From: Polytrichum commune
Lineage: Eukaryota; Streptophyta; Polytrichopsida; Polytrichales; Polytrichaceae
Direction of reading: 5' to 3'
Length of the DNA stretch: 64,000 nucleotides
Assembly (NCBI GenBank): GCA_950295325.1
Contig: OX485809.1
Location: 41,137,081-41,201,080, forward strand
Below the pieces are notes generated by a model. It saw nothing but the letters and a program-made list of their open reading frames with translations, searched no databases and was not told the DNA's origin. Shown here piece after piece: positions 10,015-56,250 of this stretch; the first letter of the stretch is position 1, and each line of letters begins with the position of its first letter. Made by a program: the position numbers and the translations under genes.

Positions 10015-13000
10015 TGACACCCGTAGCCAGGTACTGGCGTGACTGAGAGCCCGTTAGCTTATTGTTGATCCCGGTTTTCCGTGATGCAGTAATAAGCGTT
10101 ATGCCTCTTACGAGGAGGGCTCGATTGTTATATCCAAGAAAGTTTCTTTCCCTTAGGGAATGGGGACATGTGTTTGTTTGTTTTCTAGGTTTCTTTTGTT
10201 GAGAATAATGTATGTGAGGTAATTGATGGCATTTTGGTGGATATTTTTCATGAGGGTTTTGATGGCTAGTTTTGGGATTTTAAGGTGGGTGAGCTTGTTG
10301 ATGGAGTGTTTGTGTATGGCTCCTCTGACTCCGGCTGTGATGGTGATGAGTGGGTTAGTTTTCCATCCGTTGTTTTGTATGGTGTTTACTAGTGGGTCGT
10401 ATTTAGTGTGTTTGTGTGTGATGGCTTGGTCGGGGAATCTGTCATGATAGTATGTGAATTCGATGAATTGGGTTGTGATTGTGGGGGAAGGTGTAATTGG
10501 GGTTGGTGTGTGGTTTGGGGCTCCTATGAGACATAGTATGTCGGGTCGGAGTTTGGCTAGGCATAAGCATGGTGGTTGCGGGCATGTACATCTAAGGAGC
10601 CAATGTGGAATTGTTTTGTCCGGTGACCTATTGTTATTGATGCATGCATTGGTTAGTGTGTAGTATCGGGTGTTTTTGTTTGCTTGCAGGGTCTGGTTGA
10701 TGAGGTGCACTGCTTTGGGGTGCCGAGCGATTCTTAGACCTTTTAAGTATGGGTGTTTGCATGTAGATAGTAGGTGTGGCCACGTGTCTCTGTCATTGAG
10801 GTGGCATAGTGTACAGTTGGGATTGTGGTGTGTAAGGGGCCAAAATATGGTTTTTCTATGGTTACCCATGTATTGTGCATATCTAAATGTTAATGTTTGT
10901 GTGATTTGGGCATTTGTCACGGTTTTGTCTTTCCAGAAGTGGTTGGAGAGCTTTTGGTGTATTTGGGTGTTCGAGAGCCATTTGTCTACTTATGGGAATT
11001 TGGCTTTGGCCATCGCCGTTTCTCGTGTTTGGTGTTCTTTGGTTATGAATGTGTGGAGATTACGTATGGCTCCGTCGTGCGTGGCTGACGGGCAACTTGC
11101 AAGCCAATAGGGGGTGGGGTGTGTTGTGTGTATACGTGGGGTTTTGGTTGGTTTCTCTTGGGATGTTCCCTCATTGGCTAGGCTATCGGCTATCTCATTC
11201 CCAGTAATTCCGGCGTGAGCACGTACTTCATGTATATGTATGGTGTGTGGGGTCCAATATATTTGGCGTACTATTGTTGCTATTAGCAGTTTGTCCGGGT
11301 GATGGTGTTGTGATGTTGGGTGTTGGATGTGATTATTAATTAAAAATATGCTATTTAGGCTATATGTGAATATGTGTATGTCCTGTTGGGGGGATTTGAT
11401 GTTTTTGATAACAATGAATATTGCGTTAAGTTCGGCTCTTAGTATGTTTTGATATCCTGGCAGTCGTTCGGCTATTCGGGTGTTATTATTAGGGCTATAT
11501 ACTCCCGAGCCTGCTGTATTACCCTCTATATTACCTTCTGAGTTTTTGGTGGGTGGTATAAATGACCCATCCATGTAGTAGCATTGTTGTGGGTGGTATT
11601 TGAGGGGGTGGATGTAATAGTATTTGTTTGGTATGGGTGTTGGGGGTGTGTATGTTGGGGGCTTCCTTCCATGTTTTGGAGAGTTTGACATGGTAATTTA
11701 TGGGAGTGGGTTGGATGGGGTGTGTGTCAATGTGTATGTTGAGTTTGGTTCTTAGGACATTTTGGAGTTCGCTCGGGGTCTGTAGGGTTCTTGTAAGTGT
11801 AGTTTGGTTGTGTATGCATATTATGGAGGTTATGGATGGTTCCACATAGCTGTAGTATTTGGGCCATTATGGTGTCGGAGCATAGAGTATGGTATGTGGT
11901 GGGATGTTGGTGATTGTATGTATGTATGCGTTTGTCGTGATTGGGAGTTGTTGTGACGTCCAATCTCTGTGGTTGAGTATTAGGAGGGTGATGGTGTTTA
12001 TGTCTTCTTTGGCTGCCATTCGTGCCCAGTGGATGGCTTCTAGGGGCGTGTTGTGGTCTGTGGGGTACGCTAGACCTATTCCTGTCCATCTAGAGGATTT
12101 TGCGTGTCCCATGGAGCCAAATATTATGTCTCTGGTATTTGGTGAGTTGTATTGTGTGAGTTGGATAGGACAAGTGAGCGGGGAGGAGTAGTATGAGTGT
12201 GTGATTTGGAAGGATTCTATTAGTAGTTTGGTGATGGCTAGGTTTAGTGTGTGGTGGTTATTGCAAGGTTGTATAGTCTTAGGTTTCTTCTTGGGGAGTA
12301 TAGTGATGTATCTTTGTATGAGCCACAATACTTCGGTTTCAAACTTTTGTGGAGGGGGTTGTAGGAAGGTTGTTAGATGTTGGAGTTTGTTATGGGAGTA
12401 TTGGTTCCATAGCCATTGTAGTCTTTCGGTTGTGATGGTAGCCATGTAGTACCCGTTTTGGTCAAAAATGTGAGATTCAGAGTCTTGTATTTGTATGGTT
12501 GGGGCGGTAGTATGGATGTCTCTGTCCGGGTTCCTTTCTTGTGTGGATATTTTGAGGTTGGTGATTTTAAGTGGGGGGTGTATGAATTTGTTGTCTTTGG
12601 TTTGTGTGAGGTTGAGGTATTTATCAAAGGTTTGTAGGGTTTTATGTTTTAAGGTTCTCATATGGTGTTGTGTTATGAGGAGGTTATGATCCAGTAGTAT
12701 GTTATTTGGGTGGGTGAGGTCCTCTTCTGAGCGCCATTGTTGTGTGAAGCCTTGTGCGGTATGCCATTGGCAGAGGTATGTTCTTTTGATGGCTTTTGCT
12801 CCCCATCTGTCTTTTCTAGTGGTAGTTTTTTCTTTAGTGATGTGTTGGATTGTTTGTCCTAGTGCATGTTGTGGTAGATCGTTCGGGTTTTGTTCAATGA
12901 TTGGGGGTGTGTGTAGTGTTACTTGTATGTGGTGTCTATGGGGGATGAGGGGGGGGGGTGGGGGAAATAGTGAATGGGCCTGTTGTAGAGTTGCTTTGAT

Positions 13001-13348
13001 GATTTTAGGCACATGTTTGTGTGTGGTACGGAATTCTTCCGGAGTCAATATGGTTTTAGTTTCTATATTTTGGATTTGTTGTAGGGTGGTGATACCGTAT
13101 GTGTATAGTTTGTTGAGATATTGTTGGGATTTTGTTTTGGCGATGTCCGTGAGGTTGTTGTATGCTGGGTTGGATCTCCATACTTGTTTGAGTGGGGTAA
13201 TTTTTATGGGGAATGCTCGGTTCGTAGTGGTGGCATGGATTTCGTATTCCCGTTTGAATAAGTATAGTGTTCTGGCAATGGGATCTCCTCTGAAAAATCC
13301 CGATGCTACACTCTTATGAGCGCAGGTGCCTTTAATGACAACCCCCAA
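10015..13348 (-). pseudogene. Non-LTR retrotransposon 3' half: RNase H, zinc knuckle, restriction-like endonuclease
   Basis: Reading the minus strand from 13348 down, four frames connect through frameshifts (13348-11867, 11845-about 11690, 11691-10990, about 10960-10153). The first holds a long A/C-biased connector. The third holds a type I RNase H: MDGSF near 11575, LRAELNAI, TYSLNSI (family Asp replaced by Tyr) and HAGITGNEIADSLANEG. The fourth holds a CTLCHLNDRDTWPHLLSTCKH zinc knuckle, a second Cys cluster (CTCPQPPCLC), then RPDIL, FIEFTYYHDRF and KHTKYDPL, which fit a PD-(D/E)XK restriction-like endonuclease as in R2-type and Dualen-type LINEs. The reverse transcriptase is missing: the copy is cut at about 13310-13348, where another copy joins head to head. 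The 3' tail runs to about 10015 with an ATTTATTTATTTT end. Inactive. Confidence 0.75.
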
Positions 13349-13817
13349 GAAAACACTGTCCCTAACTGGCTTTTACCCTGTACATGTGGAACCCAAAGAT
13401 GCCATTGTAATTCTCGGTTTAGACCTGACATTCTTTACGTTAAAGGGTTACCATATCAAAATGAACCCCCCACAAATATAGACCAAACACTTACCATACA
13501 ATTCATTGAATTTACATACTGTAATGACAGATTCTCACCAGAAACACTAGAAGCCAAAGCCAACAAATACAAACCCCTGATAGAAAACATTGCCGCCCTA
13601 GCTAGGCTGGAAAATCGATCCGCTCATTGTTATAACAGCCGGTGCCAGAGCCGCAACACACATCCCATCAATGAAAATACTTGAAGACAAATTTAAACTG
13701 CCTATGCCAGCCATCCGCAATACCTTCAAAAACATCAATACTATAGCCATACAATACGCTATGTCCATCCTCCTCCACGGCGGCCGGGGATTCGTGGCAC
13801 TCATGTATTTTCATTAG
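13316..13817 (+). pseudogene. Second copy of the retrotransposon endonuclease tail, opposite orientation
   Basis: The plus strand encodes the same C-terminal domain as 10153-10920 on the minus strand: VPNWLLPCTCGTQRCHC, FRPDILYVKG, FIEFTYCNDRFS and KANKYKPL. The frame shifts by one near 13605 and then reads GWKIDPLIVITAGARAATH, LPMPAIRNTFKNI and GGRGFVALMYFH before the stop at 13815-13817. The Cys cluster spacing (CxCx4CxC) and the RPD / EF / KY motifs match the first copy, but identity is moderate. This is therefore an independently inserted or rearranged relative, not a recent inversion. Only the last about 165 residues are present. Confidence 0.75.
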
Positions 13818-38040: not shown

Positions 38041-38342
38041 TACACTCTAAACTTCGTAGTATCACACTTGTGGCAACCAAAGTGCATGTGATATTGTGGA
38101 GTTTTGTAGTGTTAACATGGATGCGTGATGCTATAGAATCAGTGTAGCATGTGACATTATGGAATAACACAAAGGAGATGTGAGGATAATTTGAATTCGT
38201 TCTCCCGTCACCTACGTTAGTGTGGTCCACTCCACTTGGCCTTCCCGGGCAATGTCGCGGACGCATGCACCAACATTCAACAAGTGACATAAGATGAAGA
38301 AGAAGAATAAGAATAAGAAGGTGACACTCCACATGTTGACAC
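38041..38342 (+). mobile_element. MITE-1, left part (interrupted by the large transposon)
   Basis: The left end TACACTCTAAACTTCGTAGT is inverted relative to the right end of the second part at 49880. The sequence is collinear with the left two-thirds of MITE-2 (55305-55758), through GTGGCAACCAAAGTGCATGT, GTGGTCCACTCCACTTGGCC and GGACGCATGCACCAACATTC. It stops exactly at CATGTTGACAC, the target duplication of the 11.3-kb element. Confidence 0.85.
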
Positions 38343-41300
38343 GGGGAGTGCTATCTTATGAGCGGTGAGCGATGAGCGGTAACTTATGAGCAGTGAGGAA
38401 GATGAAAATTTTGGTAATAGGGCCACCAATATCCTATAACCGTGGAATTGTGGCCTTAAAAATGATGATTTTAGGGTTTAGTAATAAGAGGGTTGAGAAG
38501 GATAAACAACATGAAGTCCAAAAATTTATTCATCAGTAGTAGCACTAGACATGAAACTATCTTTTGCCTCGTCATCTATATATATTCGAGCACCTTTGCA
38601 TTGCGAATTGATTTTTGGAACTATAGCAAGATTCTTCATTTGGATCCGAATCTTCGAGATTCAACATTGCAATTGCAACATTCTCGGCATATGATGGGAG
38701 ACGCGGGCTACGGCTTGGACTTCGTAGGAATTGTCTATGTGCCCAAAACGGGAGACATGTCCTCTTTCCAATCGTATTCCTGAAATCAAATCGATGAAAC
38801 ATGTAAATAATGTGAAGAAATAAAAATGAACCAATGAATTGAATGAAACGAATGAATTGAATAAAAATTTATTGTATTAAAACTTACTCACACTCAAATT
38901 CAAGCATCTCCTCGTCCGAGAGGTTATCATATTCTTTTGTGAGATCTTGTATATTCTCCTTAGATGACCCCTCTTTCAAAACGTTTTCCAAAAGCGGTTT
39001 CAATATGTGCTCAAACATGTCATTATCACCCTCAAATGCAAGAAGATGTCTGCCACATGCGCGTGTTGCTAGGATAGAAGCTCCAGTGGAACATGTCAAA
39101 TCAACAACGCGTCCATTCGATGGTGTAACAATTCAATAAGATCTTGAAAAAAACGCGGCGATTTTTTATATGGCCCCCTCCAAGGTCTTCCCGATTTTTG
39201 AAGAAACATGTTTTTTTCATCCACAAAATTGAAAAGTAAGTTTTTGCTTTTCAATCCAGTGCCAAAAAAATGGATTTTGGTTGTCTTGTGGATTTTGTGG
39301 TAGTAAAATCCCTTACCAAGATATGAGCCATAAATGCCGGAGTCTACAAAAAATGTAAATTGTGTTAAAATTATATACAATGCAAATAACACCAAAATAA
39401 TTAAATAGAAACAATTGTGATGTGTTATACTTACGGTGTAGGTTGGAGACTCCGGATCCTTGAACACCATGTACGAATTGAGGCAAATAAAAGCCCTAAG
39501 AACTTTCATGTTGCCGTTGTGTAAGGTTGAATTCAAAACCTTCTTGGTTTGCATATCAATAGCAGAAAATACTATGAGGACGCCATCATCAGACAAGATG
39601 GACTTGTACAAGGACATTGTTGCAACCATCCAGTTCTTGTCATATTTATTCCAAAGAGGAATTTTAGCAGGTCTATTGGAGAGGTTGAAGTCAAGACCGT
39701 CGGGAAATTGCAGAAAAATCAAGTCAACGGCAAATGGAGTCGGACTTCCCATGACATGAAATTCGCGATTGTCTTTGAACTGAAATACCACAACATATCA
39801 CAATATAAGACACAAAATAAAATCCAAATGAAAGTAAGAACATTACAGAAAATACCAAAACAATAATACTTACGTTTTCAAGAAATGTCCGCCATTGGAT
39901 CCACTCAGGAGGGCCTACTTCAACCCCTTCAGACTTGTTCTTGATAGCAGTAGATCGAGCAAAAGAGAGCGTGAGAAAGTTCTTCAGTATGAATAACTCT
40001 TTTCTCAAAACATTCGTTGGCGCATGATGAATAGCGTCATAGGTGCTCGAGTAATGGAATTCCAATACATCGCACTCTGACTTTGAACTTTCACCTCGAA
40101 ATGGATTCTTATCCAAATCATTGGAAAGAACAAGCAATTCTTCATGTTGTGACATTTCCGATTGATCTTGTATTTTGGTTTCAGGAACATGTTTCCTCTT
40201 ACGACGTTTTGTCTCTTTTGGTTCTGGCTCTCTAAGTTTAAGCTGCATAATTTGTGCTTGCAAAATTGCAATATCACGAGGATCCATATTTTTAGCATCA
40301 TTTATCTGACGGATTGTCTTCTCACTTGACGGACATGCATCCTTAGGACAATCAAGATACCAACCACAATCCTCATAGTGTAGGAGCGACCAATCCAAAC
40401 AAATCTCAGTAGTGAACATGCATGAATATCCTGTACTAGTGTCACGCCAATTTGGGAAAAAATGAGGTTCCCCTATAACGCATTTATGTGGAATCAAAAC
40501 ATATCGAAAATACCTACACACAAAAATATTGTAAGTCAAATATTCTATGACAATTTGACAAAATGAAATCAAAAAAATCAAAAAAACAATAAGATTAGGT
40601 TGTACCTGTATAATACACGTTTCATAGCAAGATCAATATTAGGTTGCTCATCCCAACCATTGTGTATTTTAACTTTTCCGCTTTGGAATTCACGATAGAA
40701 TATTGAATTGAAAGCCGCAAACTTCCAGGTTTGGATATACTCGGAGAGAGTAGGCACATCTGCAGGCAACTGAAGAGGAGATGAAAGAATACTTTGAAGC
40801 TTTTCGATAGCCTTTTTTTTCCAACTGTGCCCAATATGTAGACTTTGATAACCAATCATCAAGTGCAGAATTAAAGAGGGGCGATTTCGGGAAATGCAAT
40901 GCATCTTTGTCAAATCTATTGCCATTCCAAAGCTTGAGCCATCCAACTTTGACTTCTGCATCCACATTACTGACAGCAACACGATGAAGTTTCTCTTGTA
41001 GCATTTCAGGCACCGAAAATGAACCCCAATGGTGCTTAACTTCTTGAAGGAAAGCAGAGGTAAGGTTGATATCGGCAATCGCTAGTTGTTTCGTCAAACT
41101 AGAAGATAACATTGCACGTTTTTTGTTGACAGCTGCGGACATTGCTTTTGAAACTCCGTCTGATGTCCGTTCAAGAGGATGAGTTTCATTGTACTGGTTG
41201 AGAGCAATATCGCTAGCCTCAGCAAGTTCTTGCTGAAAAATCAAACAAAAGTCAATATTTATAAGTTCATATAGATGTAATGTAAAATGAAGGTGAATAA

Positions 41301-42595
41301 ACATAAGGCACATATTAACAATGGTAGAAGAACTTACACTGTACATGTAATCTTAAAAAATTGGTCGTGTCAAAGAATACCAAGTTTCGACGGACTTCTC
41401 CTCACATCGTTTATAACTCTTTAGATCCAGTTGCTTTCTGAAGGAAGTCAAAGGCATGGTGCCAATACTTTGCATCCGATATAAAGTATGCACTAAATTG
41501 GTGGATACGTGAGAATTTTTGGTTGAACTAAAAGAAACATTAAATTGATTAGATTCATGATGATATAATTTGGAAAACAAAATATAAACTAGAAATAAGT
41601 GTAAAAAAATAGGTAAGAACATTACTTGTTGATGTCATGCATAGCAGTCAACAACTTTGGAATGTCGTCAGGCTCGGGCGCCAAAATGATAGAATCCACA
41701 AAGACATGACGTTCATAATCTTCGGTATATACGTGGTCAATATAAATTTTCCAAGCAAGAAATCTGTGATTTCCATCTCATACAGAAAACATCTTGTTTT
41801 TGTATGACGTCAATGACAAATCTGTATCCAATTGAGATTCAAACAGGGCATTGGCTTGAGCCCAATTTGGGCTCCAAGATGCGCGAACCTCATCATCCAC
41901 GAATTGAAAGTTTCCCTTAGAATCGGTGGCCGATATATAAAACACACGGTCACCATCACGATAACCATTGAAAAAATCAGCCTCCAATTTAGTAATGTCA
42001 CCATTCAAAGCAGGACGCACAATCGGCATAGGAACCATGTGACATAAGGGTACACGCAAGCGAGCATTAGGTCCAGCACGGATTGAAGAAATTATGGAAG
42101 TAGATTTGACCTTTCGTTTGTTCGTAAGCTCCCACACTTTCTCTTGATAAGTTTTATTGTCACCATCATTATCTTCATCCGAGTCAAAATCATCGAGGAA
42201 TTCATTAATTTTTTTCTTTTTCTTATTATGAAGATTTGACGATATGTCCTGATGATGATGAACTTGTTGAAATTGACGATCTTGAGTTGAATGCATTGTG
42301 GAATCATCATCAGTAGAAATAGGAGTCGTTCTTTCCAAATCCATTGATTGGTCCTAAAACAAATGAAATAAGTTTCATAAATATTTCAAAACAAGTAGCA
42401 ACACATTAGCAATAACATTACAAAAACAACAACAATAACAACAGAATACCACGAACACAAGGAAGAATGACAAAAATTATTCTAGACACAGCCATTTGCA
42501 CCTTTAAATATTGTACGATTAGGGTGGCCGCTCACCCCAAAACTACAAGGCCAGACCCTGTGCGTCCAACTACAGGTCTAACAAAGTTGGACGCG

Positions 42596-42912
42596 AGGTT
42601 TGGGTCGTTCGACCCAAACCATGCTCATAGTTTGGGTGGAATGACCCAAACTAGGCACACAGTTTGGATCGAACGACCCAAACTAGGCACACAGTTTGGG
42701 TCGAACGATCCAAACCATGCTCAGAGTTTGGGTCGTTCGACCCAAACTAGGTAGACAGTTTGGGTCGATCGATCCAAACTCTGAGCATGGTTTGGATCGA
42801 TCGACCCAAACCATGCTCACAGTTTGGGTCGTTCGACCCAAACTAGGCACACAGTTTGGGTCGTTCGACCCAAACTAGGCACACAGTTTGGGTCGAACGA
42901 CCCAAACTGTCC
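42596..42912. repeat. Array of ten palindromes, family A
   Basis: Ten units of TTTGGGTCGTTCGACCCAAA or variants (inner bases TT, AA or AT; occasional GGATCG) are spaced by 8-14 bp linkers (AGGCACAC or ATGCTCA), giving a period of about 35 bp. Each unit is a 20-24 bp perfect or near-perfect palindrome. Reading frames through the array repeat a short peptide, but this follows from the repetition and is not taken as coding. Confidence 0.92.
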
Positions 42913-43121
42913 GCAATTTACGCCTGATTATGCGCGATTTCCCAGTCACTATGAAAGTGCAAACAAACCTTGTACTGCACCTGTAGATGAGAGAGTTTGC
43001 AGCGATGAGCTCAGGTTCGACGGAGGAGAGAAAAAAGACTGAATGCTTTGGGGTTGTGGCAATTTATACTACTAATCCCTGGAGCCATATTTAGCGTGGC
43101 TCTTCGTGGCCCCGCATAGCC

Positions 43122-43320
43122 GCTAGAAAGTTGCCATCGCAGACCCTATGCGTTAACGCACAGGGTCTACTTGCCCAACTTTGCGAAGCCTCTAGCTAGG
43201 CAAGTAGACCCTGTGCGTTAACGCACAGGGTCTGCGCTGGCAACTTTCTAGCCACTATGCGTTAGCGCATACACCCTGTGCGTTAGCGCATAGACCCTGT
43301 GCGTTAACGCACAGGGCCGA
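43122..43320. repeat. Large cruciform-like palindrome plus family B palindromes
   Basis: Positions 43122-43252 form one long inverted repeat: CTAGAAAGTTGCCA...CAACTTTCTAG at the ends, and inside each arm a 20-bp palindrome CCTGTGCGTTAACGCACAGG. Two more family B palindromes follow immediately, at about 43256-43316. The nested symmetry would allow extended cruciform or hairpin RNA structures. Confidence 0.9.
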
Positions 43321-43734
43321 GACGTGAATTTTTTTTTTTTTTTTTTTGCCAAAACTTGTAAAATCTGGAAAAAATGCTAATGGGGTAAAAAAAAACAAAA
43401 ATATGCTATATTATCTAAATTTCCGTAGCTACAAATTCTTCTCATATTTTGTTTTGGTTTGAAATGATTTTCTTTTCTCATTCTTCTATCTATTTCCTTG
43501 TTTTGGGCCACCTCGTAGATTTTGGGTTTCGGGGCAAAAAAAAATTTATGTTGTTTTGTGTCATTTCCTAGCTCCTATAACGTATTGCATGAGTACTTGA
43601 GTAGTCATATTTCTCATTTCTTGCATTCTAACCTCGTTTTCAATAGTTTTTTTGCTCCTAGGTTTTGAACATCGATTTAAATTCATACAATAGATATTTG
43701 TTTTAATTTTAGGCTCTCCTAGTCGTTTTACCTT

Positions 43735-44190
43735 CCAACTTTTGGCCTTCCTAAATTGCTCTTACAAACCCTGTGGGTTAACGCACAGGGTTTCTCCTCC
43801 CAACTTTGGCCTTCCTAAGTTGCTCTTACAAACCCTGTGCGTTAACACACAGAGTTTCGCCTCCCAACTTTGGCCTTACTAAGTTGCGCTTACAAACCCT
43901 ATGCGTCAAAGCACAGGGTTTCTTCTCCCAACTTTGGTCTTCCTAAATTGCTCTTACAAACCCTGTGCGGTAACGCACATGGTTTCGCCTTCCAACTTTT
44001 TGCCTCCTAAGTTGCTCTTATAAATCCTCTGCGTTCTCCTCCTGATTTCTAGCCTTCCTAAATTTCTGTTATATACCATGTGCATTAACGTATAGGGTTT
44101 CTCTTCTTTAATTTATAACCTCTATAAATTGCTACTACATGACATGTGAGTGAACGTACAAGGTTCTCTGTCCTAACTTACAACTTATGC
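43735..44190. repeat. Tandem array of family B palindromes, decaying toward one side
   Basis: About six units of roughly 65-70 bp consist of CCCAACTTTGGCCTTCCTAA, GTTGCTCTTACAAA and the CCTGTGCGTTAACGCACAGG palindrome followed by GTTTCTCCTC. The first units are nearly exact; units toward 44190 accumulate changes and lose the palindrome. Confidence 0.85.
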
Positions 44191-45069
44191 ACTATCAAAT
44201 TATGTGAACGTTGAACTGACTTACCTTTTTGTTTGTCGTCTTCTTTGAACCCGTCTTCAATTCGGACTCTGATATACGATCGTCTACATCTTCTTTGTTC
44301 TTTGCACCTTCATCATCCTCCATCGCATCAAAATCCAATGTCTTCACAGTTTCTTCTACCGTACTCAACAAGTTTCTTTTCCCTTTTTTTTTTGCGTCCT
44401 TCTTTCCCACACTGAGTCTGAACCTTTTTTTCTCGGAAGTGAAATACAAAGCTTTCCTACGTCTTGCCTTCGGCCTCACGGGCGTTCTCTTTATATCGTC
44501 CACCATCGTTGGTGTCTATGATATGTTTTTTATCAGGTACTATCATTTATTCTTCCAATGTATCTATCTCACAAAATCCGGCGTATATTACGATCATATG
44601 TTGTAATTGGCGTTCAATGAACGAGATATTTCGACGCGTTTGTCATTATGTGTTTATTTTTGTTATATCCGCCAAAATTTTCTGACACCTACTTTGTTCT
44701 ATTCATAATGATCAATAATTTGTTTTTCCAACCAATTTTAATTCTTTCTACATCTGCGTCAGTCCACACATATATATTTTTAATTTCTACCAATACTTTT
44801 AGTATTTGACGCCGTTTTGTGTATATCTTGCTCGTAAATAGTCTCTGACTATTATTGTATTATGGTCATTTCTGTATTATTAGATGCTATGTATCATACG
44901 CTTTCATTTCCATCCATTATTGTATCACACGTTTTCATTTCCATTCATTTCCTCACACAACTCTATACAAAAACAACATTCACCCCATATTTTTGTGATG
45001 TGTTGTTCATATGTTCTTTTGATTTTCTATGGCTACCATTAGATCTCATGGATCTTTGTTCCCTTCATT

Positions 45070-45740
45070 TTGCCACTCCAAGATGATGGTCATGTGAGTG
45101 TTTCAGAGGATTTACTTAGTTTGAGATTCAACCTCCAGATAAGAACCATGTATTTAGAGCATGAGATGTACTCTGCAGATAGAGAGGTGTATGAAACGAT
45201 TTTGGTTCCAAAAAATAGAACTGATGTTGGTTTTATGTGGATCTTAGGACCTGGTTCATTTAGGGTGATAGGATTTTTTGAGTCTCAGATGCAAGCTTCA
45301 ACTGTCATTTTGACAAACGAATCCGGTACATCCACAGTTCAAATTTCTTCTATCACACCTGTTAAGGTGAAACCCCTTGATGATAGTTGTTTGTGCTATC
45401 AGATTCAGAAGATGACATTTGTGCATCTGTTAATCTTTCAAACACATCGCCATTTCCATTTAGAAGTGTTCATTCTACTCCTTCCCAACTTCCTATACAT
45501 GTAGCCAAATCCCCTTGCGGTCTTATGTACAAGAAGATGGTTTCCCCAAATCTCACCTTCTCAACGTCCTCCACTACACCCTTCACCTTCATCTATAGGG
45601 TTGACTATGGTTGATGCCTTGAAGCTGATAAAGTCAAGAAAAAGATCAAAGTCCGATCTTGCATCCATTGATTTTGACAGTATAGATGTTCGTGAAGTCA
45701 AGACTTACCATCTTCTTTTAATGGTGATGTTTTATTTCTC
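45070..45740 (+). other. 5' coding region of the transposase gene, structure unresolved
   Basis: Frames here read as protein but do not join cleanly to the main frame: EDLLSLRFNLQIRTMYLEHE with TILVPKNRTDVGFMWILGPG (45085-45370), then LSDSEDDICASVNLSNTSPF (about 45393-45490), then VDALKLIKSRKRSKSDLASI (45610-45700), then SSFNGDVLFLLPPVALKAPS leading into the transposase frame. Either small introns or one-base indels separate them. The first ATG and the true N-terminus are not fixed. Confidence 0.45.
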
Positions 45741-48700
45741 TTGCCTCCTGTGGCACTCAAAGCTCCAAGTACGTATGGTCGCTCAATGGACGGCATGGAC
45801 AAGATGTGCGACAGTCACCCTTGGTGCACCACCAAAACCACCAATATCCAAAATGATTTTGGACTGTCCTTCCGGCGTTCTACTTGTGCTGGTCATCTCC
45901 AATGTCATAATGACTACTGTGATTACATAAATTGCAACGGGGGCCTCCGGAACAACACTGAATGGGCCGGTTCAACTCCTATCCCATTTGCTGTGGGTGT
46001 TGTTCCCCCTACTAAGTCCACTGTCGAGTGTAAGGTATGTCGTTCCACACCTGTGTGCATTGCTTTGTGTAATGCTCGAATCATATACATCCACTCCACA
46101 TCCGTTGGAATGTCCAGGGCTTGCATTCATCTTGGTGTACATGATCACCCTGTGGCCAATGGCACATGCCGTGAATCATTGGACATGGCATACGAATGCG
46201 TTGCAAATGAAGTATTGAAAACACCCACAGCAAAAAATTCAGCCATAGTTATGGCGGCGAGTAAACAATTCTTGGCCGATTACCTTCTCAAATCTCCCGC
46301 AAATGTCGAAGGCCATCACTTGGTTGGTTCATCCCTAGAGGTCGTGATGGACAAATTCAGCACTCTTGCCTCTCCAAATTGTCGTAACTTTGTATCTGGA
46401 TCAAAGCGTTTTTTGCGTAGTGGAATGGGAACTATGGATAGTATTATGGCGCTCAAAGACCACTCTGCTTTCAAATTCGTCCATGGTAGTCGGTTCCCAG
46501 GGCAGTCAAAGGACAAAGTGTTTGTTTTCAAGATGTCTATAGACCTTCCATGTAGTGGTGTGGAGCTTGTGAAGAGGATGCAAGTCGGTGGGGATATGGA
46601 GAATTCATGGATTATGTTTGAGCATGTCAAATGTTTGAAGGACTGGACGACCATGGCTTGCCATGTGTACGACAGTCGATACTGTAAAGTGTTGACTATT
46701 GCCTGTTGTGACATGCAATCTGAAGATGGTGCAGCACAAATTCTCTTTTGGGAAAATTTGAATGCTGTCATGGCAGATAATGATGTACCAAACGTAAACT
46801 TCAAAGGGTTTATGGCTGATAGTACTCAAGCTAATTGGAATGCGGTGAGGGCAATTTACGGGGATGGTGATCCAAGTCTACCCATGGTTGCATGTGAGCG
46901 TACATGTCTTTTCCATTGGTCCGCAAGCTTGGATAAGGTGACCCAAAAGTATATCAAACCATCCTTGCAATTTCAACACAAACAAATATGCAAGGATTAC
47001 AAAGACGCGAAAACAATGGACGACGCTGAGACCAAGTACCATGTGATTCGTTCTTGGTGGTTGTCTTCTGGAGCTGCCTCCGAAGAAGGCATCCTTGGCC
47101 TTTCAGAGTGGTTGGGATTTTGGCACTTTCGTTATAGACAATGGGGTGGCCATATGCTACTTGTAAGTACATATCAAACTTCATTAGTCAATGTAATATA
47201 TCCTATGTTTTTCTTATCTTTGTCTTTCTGTGTTGTTCATAGGATATGACAATAAAAGAGCGTGCGGGAATGCCAATATGCAACCTTGCAGAGACTGTAC
47301 ACAACAAACAACAAACAGTTTGGGTCGTTCGACCCAAACCTTGTATGCAGTTTGGGTCGAACGACCCAAACCTAGATATATAATCTATCTTATGTTTGTC
47401 TTATCCTTATATTTGTATGTTGTTCATAGGATATGACAATAAAAGAGCGTGCGGAAATGCCAACATGCAACCTTGCAGAGACTGTACACAACAAATGGCT
47501 CCAACAGTCCGGCAACAAAATTACTTGTTTATATGAAGCTACAGTGGACGACATGATCCGTGCCTTCATGCAAATTGCAAATTACCGGACATGGTTGAAA
47601 GGGGGGTCTGATGGTAAAGGTCATGATTCGACCTCCTTGAAACTCAAAGCAGCTGCCAGGTGTGGAGATCCAAAAATGTTGGCCGATGCCATGAAGTCTT
47701 ATCCAGGGGCAGAAGACGTCAACACGAGAGATTGTGCATTGGAAGGGTCAGAGCTCTTTGGTTCCACCAAACGCAAACTCAACCTACCACCAGGTGCTGA
47801 TTGTGGCTCTCATCGACCCGACAAAGTGAACTATTCCATTCCTCGTTCCAACACCCGAGCAACTCGTCAACGCATAGAGGAATCGTTGAGTTTTGCAATT
47901 CACGGTGTGGCTCATACTACATCTGTGTTAGAGACTGATTGTCTTGCTTCTAAGTGGCACATTGCAAGATTGCCACCCAACTCTGCCAAACGTTGTTGGG
48001 CACTGCAGGCCATTACAGGGACTATGTGCAATGCCAAAGTCGGGACTGGGAAACATGGCACACCTGCTTCAACATACAAAGGGCTCAGGAAGGAATTTCG
48101 CTCTCCCAACAATGTGGAGTATGAATTTTGGTTTTGTCATGACGACATCAAACGTTGTGTGAGTGGCAGTAAGAAGAAATATGTGTTGGATTGGCCTATA
48201 GTACCCAACACGTGGCCAGTGAAGATAGGTACCAATCTATCGAGAGAGGAGGTTTTGGCACTTGAAGATGCTGGATTTCAACTACAGCAGAGGGAGGCAT
48301 TGTCTCCTCGTCGTAGGCTTTCAACAATCGCAACTCTTCCCATCCCTTGCTCGCATTTTTCTATGCCACCAAACCCAAACGCCCACCCTACATTCATATT
48401 TGGGAAGACAGTGCGTCGTAATCCAACAGCACCTCTGGCGGATCACAAAAACAAATGGGAGAGCGCCGGACTCATGGAAGGTTACTATGTGGTTGGGGTC
48501 ACTGCCATTCCATATCCGGGCTTTGGAGTGATAATCAACATTGTCTCCAAGCAGGATATCACCTACCATGTCACAATTGGCGATATCCCGCATTGCACAT
48601 GTCCAGATTTCACGAAAATGTCCTCTCATGCATTGGGAAAGAAAGGAAAATGGGTGTATTGTAAACATCTTTATTATGTGTTTAGATTTTTGTGCAAGGT

Positions 48701-48797
48701 GGATTACGAGAGTGACAAGTTCATTCATGCACCTACATATACCTATAATGAGGTCATGCGACTACTTGAACTTGCTGGTATTTTAGAATGTGAGTAG
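45741..48797 (+). CDS. MULE-type transposase with Cys/His N-terminal domain and SWIM zinc finger
   Basis: Two exons are supported, 45741(or upstream)-47162 and 47430-48797, joined by a phase-0 GTAAGT...TTCATAG intron, giving about 930 residues. In order: a Cys/His cluster (CAGHLQCHNDYCDYINC, ECKVCRSTPVC, HLGVHDHPVANGTCRE) like the zinc-binding WRKY-GCM/FLYWCH-type domain of MULE proteins, then an RNase H-like core. Candidate acidic residues are in CHVYDSRYCKV, in FKGFMADSTQANWNAV and in SEEGILGLSEWLGFW, and a MULE-like CxxH is in ERTCLFHWSASLDK. Exon 2 carries a SWIM finger, CTCPDF near residues 855-860 and CKHLYYVFRFLC about 25 residues later. The protein ends LLELAGILECE, and an AATAAA lies at about 48838. 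It would bind the element ends and catalyse excision and insertion. No stop interrupts the two main exons. The catalytic assignments are by pattern only. Confidence 0.82.
47163..47429 (+). repeat. Transposase intron with duplicated splice acceptor and exon start, plus two family A palindromes
   Basis: The 3' part of the intron and the first about 70 bp of exon 2 occur twice (about 47195-47312 and about 47385-47500). Between the copies sit two TTTGGGTCGTTCGACCCAAA-type palindromes (about 47318-47371). The first acceptor is the AG at 47241-47242. Using it would read through the palindromes and stop at a TAA near 47380, giving a truncated protein; using the second acceptor (47428-47429) keeps the frame open. 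Confidence 0.85.
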
Positions 48798-49475
48798 TAT
48801 TGCAAGTGTTCTATTAAGTAACATATATTTGAATGTCAATAAATGACATGTTTTGGTTTGGATTATTATAATAAAAATTAGCAGTGGACTGAAAGTATTT
48901 CAGATAATTCAGTAACTTTATTTTTATTTAGATTGTGACCCAACTATGTGTGGTTTGATTGATTCACACGGATAAATAATAACACATTTCTAAAAATAAA
49001 AAATAATTAGGAAGATTCTACGCACATCTGCGTAGTAACGTCTTCTTGGTATCCGCCTATAGATTATTTCTGCTTTATCACTAGCTCAATTTGGGATAGC
49101 ACCAGTCAATGTAACCAACCGGATTCGAACCCGGGTTGATCCAGACCTAATACCAGTCTCTTACACAACTCGCATCCACAGGCGGATGTCTCAAAACCTA
49201 GTAGCTACCTACATATTCATTATTTCTAATATCTAATTTTCTTTCTTTTGTAGATTCAGGGCCTTTATTCAACCTGTGGGCAGTTTGAGTGGCTCACAAT
49301 TATGGCACCGACATATATGTATAATGCTGTTATGCACCTACTTGAATTTGCTGGTGTTGTAGAATGTGAGTAGTTGTACAAGTGCTAGTTGTAGCTATAT
49401 GTATAAGGATGTCAATAAATGACAAGTATTGGTTTGAATTATTATAATAAAAATCAACAATGGATTGAAAGTGTT
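48730..49475 (+). repeat. Partial tandem duplication of the transposase 3' end
   Basis: Positions 48730-48900 (last codons, stop and downstream region) are repeated at about 49304-49475. Both read LLE-AG--ECE and a stop, and both contain a CAATAAATGACA polyadenylation-like signal. The second copy follows a TTTCTTTTGTAG acceptor (49242-49253), so it may be an alternative or ancestral last exon. Confidence 0.8.
49005..49205 (-). mobile_element. tRNA-derived SINE-like insertion
   Basis: On the minus strand a perfect pol III B box, GGTTCGAATCC (49121-49131), lies within a T-arm-like CCGGGTTCGAATCCGG. A weak A-box-like segment is about 45 bp upstream. Downstream sequence is unrelated to tRNA and ends in a short inverted CTACGCAGATGTGCGTAG and an AT-rich tail. 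It sits between the two copies of the transposase 3' end. A complete tRNA cloverleaf does not fold by eye, so a SINE or tRNA relic is more likely than a functional tRNA. Confidence 0.45.
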
Positions 49476-49691
49476 CTAAATGATTTATGGAAATAGGGCC
49501 CTTTCACTTGTGCTTCATTTAAAATATTGGCAATTTACAATTGAAAATATGCAATTAATTTGTCAAAAATTTGGTTGTAAACCCTAAACCCGTGTGTCTT
49601 TACTAAATTTGGATTCATTGCTCATGTGTTACTGCTCACCGCTCACCCTCACTGCTCATCGCTCATAAGATAGCTTCCCTCATGTTGACAC

Positions 49692-55199: not shown

Positions 55200-56250
55200 G
55201 TGGGCCTTCATAGAGGTTGCTTAATCCTTAACTTCCTAGAGGGTATTGTGGTTTTATTAGGTCATCTAAAAAGTAAGTTTTTTAGAGCTCACTTTTTATT
55301 GTTGTACACTCTAGAAATTCCATAGTATCACATATGTGGCAACCAAAGTGCATGTAATATTACGGAGTTTTGTAGTGTTAACATGGATGTGTGATACTAG
55401 TGAATTAGTGTAGCATGTGACACTATGGATTAACACAAAGTGCAACATTTTAATGGTGTGGTGTGGTCCACTCCACTTGGCCTTCCCGGGCGATGTGGTG
55501 GACGCATGCACCAACATTCAACAAGTGGCATAAGAAGAAGAAGAAGCAGAAGACACTCCACATGTTGACACATGGCACAATGCGAGGGTGTGGGTTGACT
55601 TCTTTGGTAGTTTGCATTAATGACAAATTTTGTGATATAAGGGAGAGAAATGTGACAATAAGGAGTGAGATTTGAACTACGAACATCCGTTCCCTAGGGC
55701 TTCGGGATGTTAAAGAGTGTGACATTATGGAGGTTGATATTACATAGTTTAGGGTGTATCTACGAGGAATGTTCTTGTTGATGATTTTTAGATTACATCA
55801 ATACAATAGCAATATTCATTGATTTTCACAATTCGTTTATGATCTATTGAGAATCATTAAACTTCAAAAAGTTGTGATAAATATATGCAATAAAATTAGA
55901 GTCAAAACTTTCAAGATTATATTAAGAATAGATGCACACTTTGAGGTGAGAAAAATTGTCCATAGAAAATTGACAAGTTTCAATCAAAATAGGACGAAGT
56001 TATTATGTGTAGTAATGTATCAACAAAGGGGAACGTTAGTTCATTCTCGACTTTAAAAAATTATTGTGAACAACCAGGTCTTCATATTGAACATGAATTG
56101 TCACCATTGACAAGACGATTTCGTAAGGAACACAATGATGCCTATTGCGACATTCCTAGCACCTTCCTTTTGGATGAATTCACCTTCAAAAGTCATTCAT
56201 AAGCCCAAAATGGGCCTCTCATGAAGTAAAGAGTTAAGAATTTCAAGAAG
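55200..56250 (+). repeat. Dispersed repeat, inverted partner of 60065-60560, carrying MITE-2
   Basis: Blocks around the MITE (TTAACTTCCTAGAG, GTCATCTAAAAAGTAAG before it; GATTACATCAATA, ATGCAATAAAATTAGAGTCA, TTGAGGTGAGAAAA, TATCAACAAAGGGGAACGTT, AGCACCTTCCTTTTGGATGA after it) occur in the same order, inverted, at 60560-60065. The second copy lacks the MITE, so it shows the empty insertion site. Confidence 0.8.
55305..55758 (+). mobile_element. MITE-2, uninterrupted relative of MITE-1
   Basis: The 454-bp element has inverted ends TACACTCTAGAAATTCCATA and TACACCCTAAACTATGTAAT (inverted right end). It is collinear with both halves of MITE-1. The TA at each outer end could be a TA target duplication. 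The related repeat at 60065-60560 has no insertion at the corresponding position. Confidence 0.82.

Follow-up and report, generated by a model that had tools for sequence, protein, structure and literature searches.

A MULE-like element with a divergent second gene

The DNA analyzed here, referred to as the window, is a 64,000-nt stretch of contig OX485809.1 of Polytrichum commune; relatives were searched in the 408-Mb assembly of this genome (64 contigs), in which a 146.6-kb contig (C8) carries the plastid genes rbcL and accD (315 residues), as fits a green plant. In the window, a transposon of the Mutator-like element (MULE) type occupies positions 38343–49680. It contains a transposase gene on the plus strand and a divergent multi-exon gene on the minus strand, hereafter the cargo gene, whose product combines a ParB-like motif region with a methyltransferase-like half. 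The element also contains arrays of short palindromes, a feature outside the account given by an earlier sequence-only reading of this DNA; palindromes with other arms recur in further elements that carry this type of cargo gene. The coordinates of all features are listed in Table 1.

The two ends of the element (GGGGAGTGCTATCTTATGAGCG... on the left and, reverse-complemented, AGGGAAGCTATCTTATGAGCG... on the right) are related in inverted orientation and are flanked by exact copies of the 11-mer CATGTTGACAC, which was found three times in the window (0.09 matches expected). The borders proposed by the sequence-only reading are thus seen as direct sequence matches. The third 11-mer had been taken as a surviving empty site. 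It is present and uninterrupted; however, when the flanks of the element were fused around a single 11-mer, they gave a single alignment spanning the junction, 494 columns in length with 41 gap columns and an identity of 82%. The site is therefore a diverged second copy of a host repeat at another locus. In the whole genome the 11-mer has 1049 matches, compared to 71 for its reversed control; it belongs to a dispersed repeat, and the empty site is paralogous.

Target-site duplications of MULEs are about 8–11 bp in size. The window copy and a second copy, el1, have exact 11-bp duplications (CATCGAAGTTA in el1), and a third copy, el2, matches at 10 of 11 positions; the inverted ends of the window element are the same in el1 and el2. 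Exon 1 of the transposase gave no match to any transposase model of Pfam. On exon 2, the SWIM zinc finger model PF04434 scored 8.6, 14.0 and 13.2 bits in the window copy and its relatives, under the cut-off of 19.6. The window element is a degraded member of a cut-and-paste transposon family of the MULE-like kind, with more than 100 copies in the genome.

Relative to el2, the cargo gene of the window copy is broken by two in-frame stops and by three 1-bp indels (an insertion and two deletions), and stops or frame breaks are also present in el1, el5 and el7. Its motif order, DGNHR followed by FLQFPDG and DLTCSTGAS, is present in the reading frames as described earlier. A putatively intact gene, which the sequence-only reading had proposed to look for in related copies, is present in el2: six exons form an unbroken frame of 996 codons, on splice sites deduced from GT/AG and homology. 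The el2 protein aligns over its full length with those of el3 (31%) and el5 (27%). A comparison with the genome, one segment at a time, verified that the aligned proteins are encoded at their respective loci. The ratio of nonsynonymous to synonymous differences (pN/pS) is 0.57 in exon 5 (14 copies), 0.56 in exon 6 (10 copies) and 0.23 in exon 1 (3 copies), calculated from gapless full-length copies only among 15 sequences (el2, 12 loci, el1 and the window copy); the 12 loci are ∼3.4 kb each, mostly short of exon 1, and one stop-bearing copy each was included for exons 5 and 1).

Transposase and cargo gene travel together

When the genome was searched for relatives, there were at least 206 exon matches to the methyltransferase-like part, 124 to the transposase and 151 to the ParB-like exon, the last including a 40–43% family. 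The window methyltransferase query, also in the search that gave the 206 or more matches, had about 25 residues in a shifted frame. For the pairing count, the 124 transposase matches were compared with 129 listed ParB-like exon matches; the list does not hold all 151, and 15 entries of the 40–43% family and six second pieces of one exon were excluded. A ParB-like cargo exon of the family that includes el2 (family A) lies within 15 kb of 79 of the 124 listed transposases, compared to a mean of 1.1 and a maximum of 6 under random placement; as the searches score top candidates only, this fraction refers to the most similar copies. The sequence-only reading had made its pairing of the two genes depend on their co-occurrence in other genome copies, and co-occurrence is what we observed. 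The orientation is head-to-head in 78 of the 79 pairs, with a median distance of 4967 bp. Among the 45 listed transposases without a family-A partner, two were examined, those of el3 and el5; in both elements the place of the cargo gene is taken by a divergent relative.

Palindrome arrays in the cargo-type elements

The window element contains two palindromes, P1 and P2 (Table 1). Related elements contain others: P5 of el5 and el6 (TTGTGCGnnnnCGCACAA) has the same core as P2, P3 was found in el3 (GGCATCTCGGATCCGAGATGCC), P4a (GGTTTCGGnnCCGAAACC) and P4b (TTGAAGCCnnGGCTTCAA) in el4, and P6 in el10 and el11 (GTGTCTCGGnnCCGAGACAC). The arrays are tandem, with periods of 32, 64 and 78 bp. The arms differ between groups, their lengths are similar.

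Eleven elements were chosen by their genes; el4, el6, el10, el11, el12 and el13 were covered partially (10–13.5 kb), and the el10 and el11 pieces stop short of the methyltransferase exons. Nine of the eleven (window, el1–el6, el10 and el11), in five groups, contain a palindrome that recurs at three or more places. None of eight control stretches of 10–12 kb does so (maximum 2), and Markov shuffles, 20 per element, also reached a maximum of 2. Recurrent palindromes are present in el7 and el8 as well, but these two elements were chosen because of P1 and are therefore excluded as a test of the association between gene and palindrome. In el2, where the position of the sites was measured, all 14 P1 and P2 sites are non-coding, with the gene model coding 6519 of 11,668 bp. 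Element-specific motif arrays in the non-coding DNA of the encoding element, as expected of a VANC-type system, are thus found, the position being that measured in el2. The consensus sequences of P1, P2, P3, P4a, P5 and P6 hold two CpG steps each; CpG counts inside the palindromes are not used as a test, since the CpGs are already set by the patterns used for searching. Separately, a 118-bp stretch around the acceptor of the transposase intron is duplicated (window 47191–47495, 91% identity), and both P1 palindromes of this intron lie between the two copies.

Table 1. Features of the MULE-like element and its surroundings in the window
Feature	Position	Strand	Basis
Target-site duplication, left copy, CATGTTGACAC	38332..38342	.	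Exact match
Left terminal inverted/subterminal repeat region, CTATCTTATGAGCGGTGAGC...	38343..38400	+	Resembles reverse complement of right end; same in el1 and el2
Cargo exon 6 with stop codon and motif I region VVDLTCSTGAS; window copy has two 1-bp deletions	38884..39343	-	Frames, el2 comparison
Cargo exon 5, motif IV region VDLIFLQFPDG	39435..39779	-	Frames, family alignment
Cargo exon 4	39874..40513	-	el2 comparison
Cargo exon 3; window copy has a 1-bp insertion	40606..41232	-	el2 comparison
Cargo exon 2; window copy has an in-frame stop	41338..41527	-	el2 comparison
Cargo exon 1, ParB-like region with DGNHR; in-frame TGA just before the motif in window copy	41626..42353	-	Frames, el2 comparison
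P1 array, GTTTGGGTCGnnCGACCCAAAC and near variants, 32-bp period, cargo intron 1	42597..42907	.	
P2 palindromes, CCCTGTGCGTTAACGCACAGGG type	43140..43324	.	
P2 array and near variants, 64-bp period	43765..44000	.	
Putative cargo exon 0, basic, Lys-rich, donor GTAAGT at 44224	44225..44505	-	Frame and splice site, inferred; outside el2 reconstruction
MULE-like transposase exon 1, 5' part frame-broken in window copy	45055..47162	+	tblastn with el1 protein; open frame 45696-47246
Two more P1 palindromes, transposase intron	47317..47371	.	
MULE-like transposase exon 2, CxC...CxH SWIM-like zinc motif	47430..48794	+	Open frame; PF04434 below cut-off
Right terminal inverted/subterminal repeat region	49615..49680	-	Comparison with left end, el1 and el2
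Target-site duplication, right copy, CATGTTGACAC	49681..49691	.	Exact match
Paralogous empty site (uninterrupted second copy of host repeat), 11-mer at 55561-55571	55305..55759	+	Joined-flank alignment

Arm complementarity and genomic confinement of the palindromes

To measure covariation between the arms, distinct sites were taken with their flanks (18 for P2/P5, 21 for P4a/P6 and 63 for P1), and the right halves were re-paired randomly 5000 times. Outer pairs 1–4 of P2/P5, counted outward from the fixed core, are complementary in 14, 16, 16 and 15 of the 18 sites, compared to 7.0–8.5 after re-pairing, values that were reached in 5, 0, 2 and 0 of the 5000 trials; complementarity stays at the chance level in pair 5 and amounts to 11 of 18 in pair 6 (6.7 after re-pairing, reached 101 times). 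The fifth outer pair of P1 is complementary in 47 of 63 sites versus 22.0 (never reached), with pairs 6–8 at chance. In P4a/P6, pairs 1 and 4 are complementary in 19 and 21 of the 21 sites (never reached) and pair 8 in 14 (reached 34 times). These values suggest that the palindromic sites are about 20–24 bp in length.

The P1 pattern has 9231 sites in the genome, the P2/P5 core 852 and P6 997, compared to 0, 4 and 0 for the respective controls. The first 50 P2/P5 sites fall into five clusters, and in all five a ParB-like exon of family A lies no more than 2 kb from the nearest site. The first 100 P1 sites fall into six clusters, three at family-A elements and three in elements of the el7/el8 type; two of the family-A clusters are beside a ParB-like exon, and the other, a single site, is beside a listed transposase only. 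Among the six clusters formed by the first 50 P6 sites, four have an el10-type ParB-like exon, one has an el4-type methyltransferase exon, and one is a lone site (C1:10990945). The sampled palindrome sites are nearly confined to elements of the cargo type. At G000:C1:461578-482718, a family-A element is apparently interrupted, between two of its palindrome groups, by DNA that contains a methyltransferase exon of the el4 type and a P6 array.

The cargo protein

The C-terminal half of the cargo protein is well supported as a predicted beta-class DNA methyltransferase fold by three matches, together with the full-length homology of el2 to el5. The last open frame of el5 (577 residues) matched PF01555 (N6_N4_Mtase) over profile positions 1–216 of 221, with an E-value of 1.1e-7 and 32.4 bits (cut-off 26.7); a profile of the methyltransferase part matched DpnA, an adenine-specific DNA methyltransferase, in the PDB over the motif I part (E 7.5e-4); and el6 matched a phage DNA-methyltransferase family of PHROGs (E 3e-5). 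PF01555 also scored 35.3 bits on el6, above the cut-off, with the best stretch at profile positions 163–216 (C-terminal part), and 16.1 bits on el2 of family A, below it.

In beta-class enzymes motif IV precedes motif I, and the canonical catalytic motif IV is [DNS]PP[YFW]. Among 14 family-A copies, 13 have FLQFPDG at the corresponding segment and the remaining one has FLQFSDG; neither is the catalytic form. The relatives have ADLPEG (el3), ADIPEG (el4), VDIPYG (el5, within VDLIIVDIPYG) and VDIPDG (el6); motif I is absent from the el3 gene model. Since motif IV reads QFPDG, methylation by family A is doubtful, and with it the earlier suggestion that the element marks its own DNA; we classify the protein as methyltransferase-fold rather than as an active enzyme. 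Judged from these motifs, catalysis has probably been lost in family A, and some relatives such as el5 may still methylate. On two contigs, strong PF01555 matches were observed (G000 C10, 98.5 and 55.4 bits; C12, 68.0 bits); these are small contigs, perhaps bacterial or organellar. In addition, protein-kinase-like frames (HCDLSFTNI...IGDWGSA; PF00069 E 0.016, below cut-off) are located upstream of the methyltransferase gene in the el5 and el6 elements (C1:9650500-9664500 and C4:44109500-44119499).

The N-terminal layout, IPLCRM..VRP..L...F.NGYR.G.....MF.IWDGNHR..AW...N.STE, follows the order of ParB motifs. This layout, with its MFxIWDGNHRxxAW motif, weakly suggests a ParB-like region. At the position of the Arg that is conserved in the NTP motif of ParB proteins (PMC12704722), DGNHR or EGNHR is present in el2, el3, el4 and el10. 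A single ParB match was obtained from PHROGs, that of el10 to phrog_1033, 'ParB-like partition protein', with an E-value of 0.15. A search of the PDB with a full-length profile of three cargo sequences gave one unrelated weak match.

A second element type that shares P1

P1 is also present in the el8-type elements (including C1:607500-628000), which have 36 exact P1 sites in el8. Among the best 95 of 1226 candidates scored, many el8-type copies are 99–100% identical, so this type was recently active. It carries a divergent gene with DUF7869 (E 7e-38), and also an FCP1/NIF-type phosphatase domain (E 4.5e-15). Another protein of el7 and el8, with the motifs FWLIDGQHSVEASKK and GDCIFNVFGGSKP, has a ParB-methyltransferase-like appearance; no Pfam model matched it, and a profile of the el7/el8 protein gave nothing relevant in the PDB. 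The sharing of P1 between family A and el7/el8 suggests either that one recognition protein is used across both types or that the array was captured independently.

Proposed function of the cargo protein and the palindromes

We propose that the cargo protein, of about 1000 residues, recognizes the palindromes that its own element family carries in introns and between genes, and that by gathering on them it would keep its own element from silencing, as VANC does for VANDAL MULEs. The methyltransferase half of family A would then serve as a binding or S-adenosylmethionine-sensing module. On the whole, the analogy and the observations above lead us to give about an even chance that the cargo acts on palindromic sites in self-recognition, and probably against silencing, in other words as a ParB/parS-like analogue of VANC; both the binding to the palindromes and the anti-silencing outcome are what we infer. 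An extension of this proposal, to which we give somewhat less than an even chance, is that the ParB-methyltransferase-fold protein of each family co-evolves with its own palindromic 'address' arrays, and that unrelated transposon types, the MULE and the DUF7869-type elements el7 and el8, share P1, with one exploiting or cooperating with the recognition protein of the other.

Several observations weigh against this proposal. The gene-chosen elements el12 and el13 lack a recurrent palindrome, with one TGTGCGnnnnCGCACA each; both are old and decayed, their ParB-like exons containing 5 and 6 stops, respectively. Because the copies within an array depend on one another, the covariation figures overstate the evidence, and P4a/P6 has no clear excess at pair 2 (15 of 21, reached 471 times), pair 3, which hardly varies, or pairs 5–7. 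The confinement sample consists of the first-listed sites on contig C1 (100 of 9231 P1, 50 of 852 P2/P5 and 50 of 997 P6 sites placed), and three of the six P1 clusters contribute only on the condition that el7/el8 are read correctly from their motifs. A genome-wide search with PF01555 gave five matches, recovering el5 and el6 and no family-A copy. No ParB model, and no PF02195, was found by a Pfam scan at E ≤ 5, and the ParB-like profile gave unrelated weak matches only in the PDB; from the earlier proposal of a ParB-like domain fused to a beta-class methyltransferase, the fold thus stands through el5 and DpnA, and the ParB part is one of motif. The conserved ParB Arg is apparently replaced in el5 (DGNHP) and in el7/el8 (DGQYN/DGQHS). 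A single-sequence AlphaFold model of the ParB-like exon was uninformative, with a predicted local distance difference test score (pLDDT) of 40. Homology of the el7/el8 protein with family A was examined by hhalign and was not significant (probability 0.4%); the el7/el8 protein is therefore ParB-methyltransferase-like by motif only. As family A has two unrelated palindromes and shares P1 with el7/el8, whose protein has no detectable homology to it, a scheme of one protein and one site is too simple.

Other explanations concern either the protein or the sites. If the cargo were an active methyltransferase of the N6A or N4C kind with its own element as substrate, the beta-class order of motif IV and motif I, the passing of PF01555 by el5 with its VDLIIVDIPYG, and the two CpG steps of each palindrome consensus (built into the patterns and so no independent test) would fit; yet a full [DNS]PP[YFW] was found in none of those examined (family A, el3, el4 and el6) and el3 has no motif I in its model, and we consider active self-marking unlikely. 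It is likewise unlikely that the palindromes are sites for the transposase or a host factor, or act as RNA or DNA hairpins, with the ParB-methyltransferase gene as a separate passenger. Palindrome arrays can form hairpins, and P1 is common to two transposon types that differ in their other genes (DUF7869 in el8). However, the end repeats are of another kind (TGAGCGGTGAGC type), the palindromes being internal, in introns and intergenic DNA, and the cargo gene type, at the level of motifs for el7/el8, is the feature common to these elements.

Template switching is a mutational route to perfect palindromes, and the tandem nature of the arrays could point to non-functional sequences that spread by tandem duplication, with arms kept complementary by template switching (quasipalindrome correction). 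We regard this as quite unlikely: despite the differing periods, the excess complementarity of P1 and P2/P5 stops at ∼11–12 bp per arm; recurrent palindromes are absent from the eight control stretches and from the two decayed copies; the sites in el2 are all non-coding; and the groups, different in their arms, are yet similar in arm length. That the cargo is a captured gene hitchhiking without any role in the element is disfavoured and seems highly improbable, for although many copies have stops or frameshifts, the gene has been kept in families whose full-length proteins are different at ∼70% of residues, pN/pS is below 1, and the head-to-head position is the same in 78 copies.

Relation to known systems

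The sequence-only reading knew of no described MULE with a ParB/N6-or-N4-type methyltransferase-like gene; such genes in algal transposons are, however, already published. Sola1-1_Ec32 of Ectocarpus encodes a protein of 1104 residues, ParB-like with an N4mC/N6mA methyltransferase, on the strand opposite to the transposase; self-binding and self-modification were proposed, and green and red algal cases cited (Iyer 2011, Petroll 2025), in PMC12477816. Like Sola1-1_Ec32, the Polytrichum cargo has both parts in one protein and is transcribed opposite to the transposase, a likeness by description. Different from Sola1-1_Ec32, the Polytrichum partner is MULE-like with 11-bp duplications, motif IV is degenerate, and family-specific palindrome arrays are present; the word 'palindrom' is absent from that paper.

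The likeness to VANDAL elements lies in a MULE-type element with a second gene and in short, tandem, family-specific motif arrays. VANC21 binds motif arrays in the introns and upstream regions of VANDAL21, and the motifs change between families (PMC5735166). The motif of VANC21 is 9 bp, with the word 'palindrom' absent from the same paper, and binding and hypomethylation have been demonstrated for VANC, whereas the Polytrichum cargo is known from sequence alone. VirB is an anti-silencer of the ParB family that acts on a palindromic parS-like site (PMC10653881). Shared with ParB/parS and VirB are a ParB-like motif and palindromic sites, of ∼20–24 bp in the Polytrichum elements; in contrast, the Polytrichum cargo has no ParB family or PDB match by sequence, and its host is a eukaryotic transposon.

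Fusions of ParB with N6_N4_Mtase are described in phages and prophages (PMC12704722), and join the same two domain types as the Polytrichum cargo. A tblastn search with the last exon of el5 against 50,697 phage records gave no match, and pattern scans with A2 (ParB-like) and A3 on viral contigs (IMG/VR) and with A2 on prokaryote contigs (GTDB) gave no confirmed relative. Retrotransposons of dinoflagellates and charophytes also carry DNA methyltransferases, but these are C5-cytosine enzymes (DNMTs) (PMC5890265). A 2026 review on gene capture by plant transposons covers VANC and does not contain the word 'methyltransferase' (PMC13317346). Among the papers listed in a literature search, none concerned palindrome arrays with ParB-methyltransferase genes, as far as titles and the starts of abstracts go, with most subscription papers outside the search. 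The ParB-methyltransferase fusion in transposons is thus already known, and the MULE-like setting and the palindrome arrays are the addition; the arrays appear to be new, which is likely but not established.

For the published algal ParB-methyltransferase genes a role had only been proposed, and the arrays offer a concrete candidate target for each family, so that what these proteins recognize could be addressed directly, using synthetic DNA and the purified protein. If the proposed self-recognition holds, transposon self-recognition through motif arrays would have evolved at least twice, in VANC and in the Polytrichum system, once from a prokaryotic-type toolkit, and the sharing of addresses between unrelated transposons would be measurable.

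Other observations in the window

An Rfam scan of the window gave no match. On the minus strand, a frame of 501 residues at 11870–13372 scored 26.5 bits with PCIF1_WW, below the cut-off of 31.1. The neighbouring frame at 10993–11697 matched RNase_H with an E-value of 3.8e-13, and is perhaps part of a non-LTR-like retroelement.

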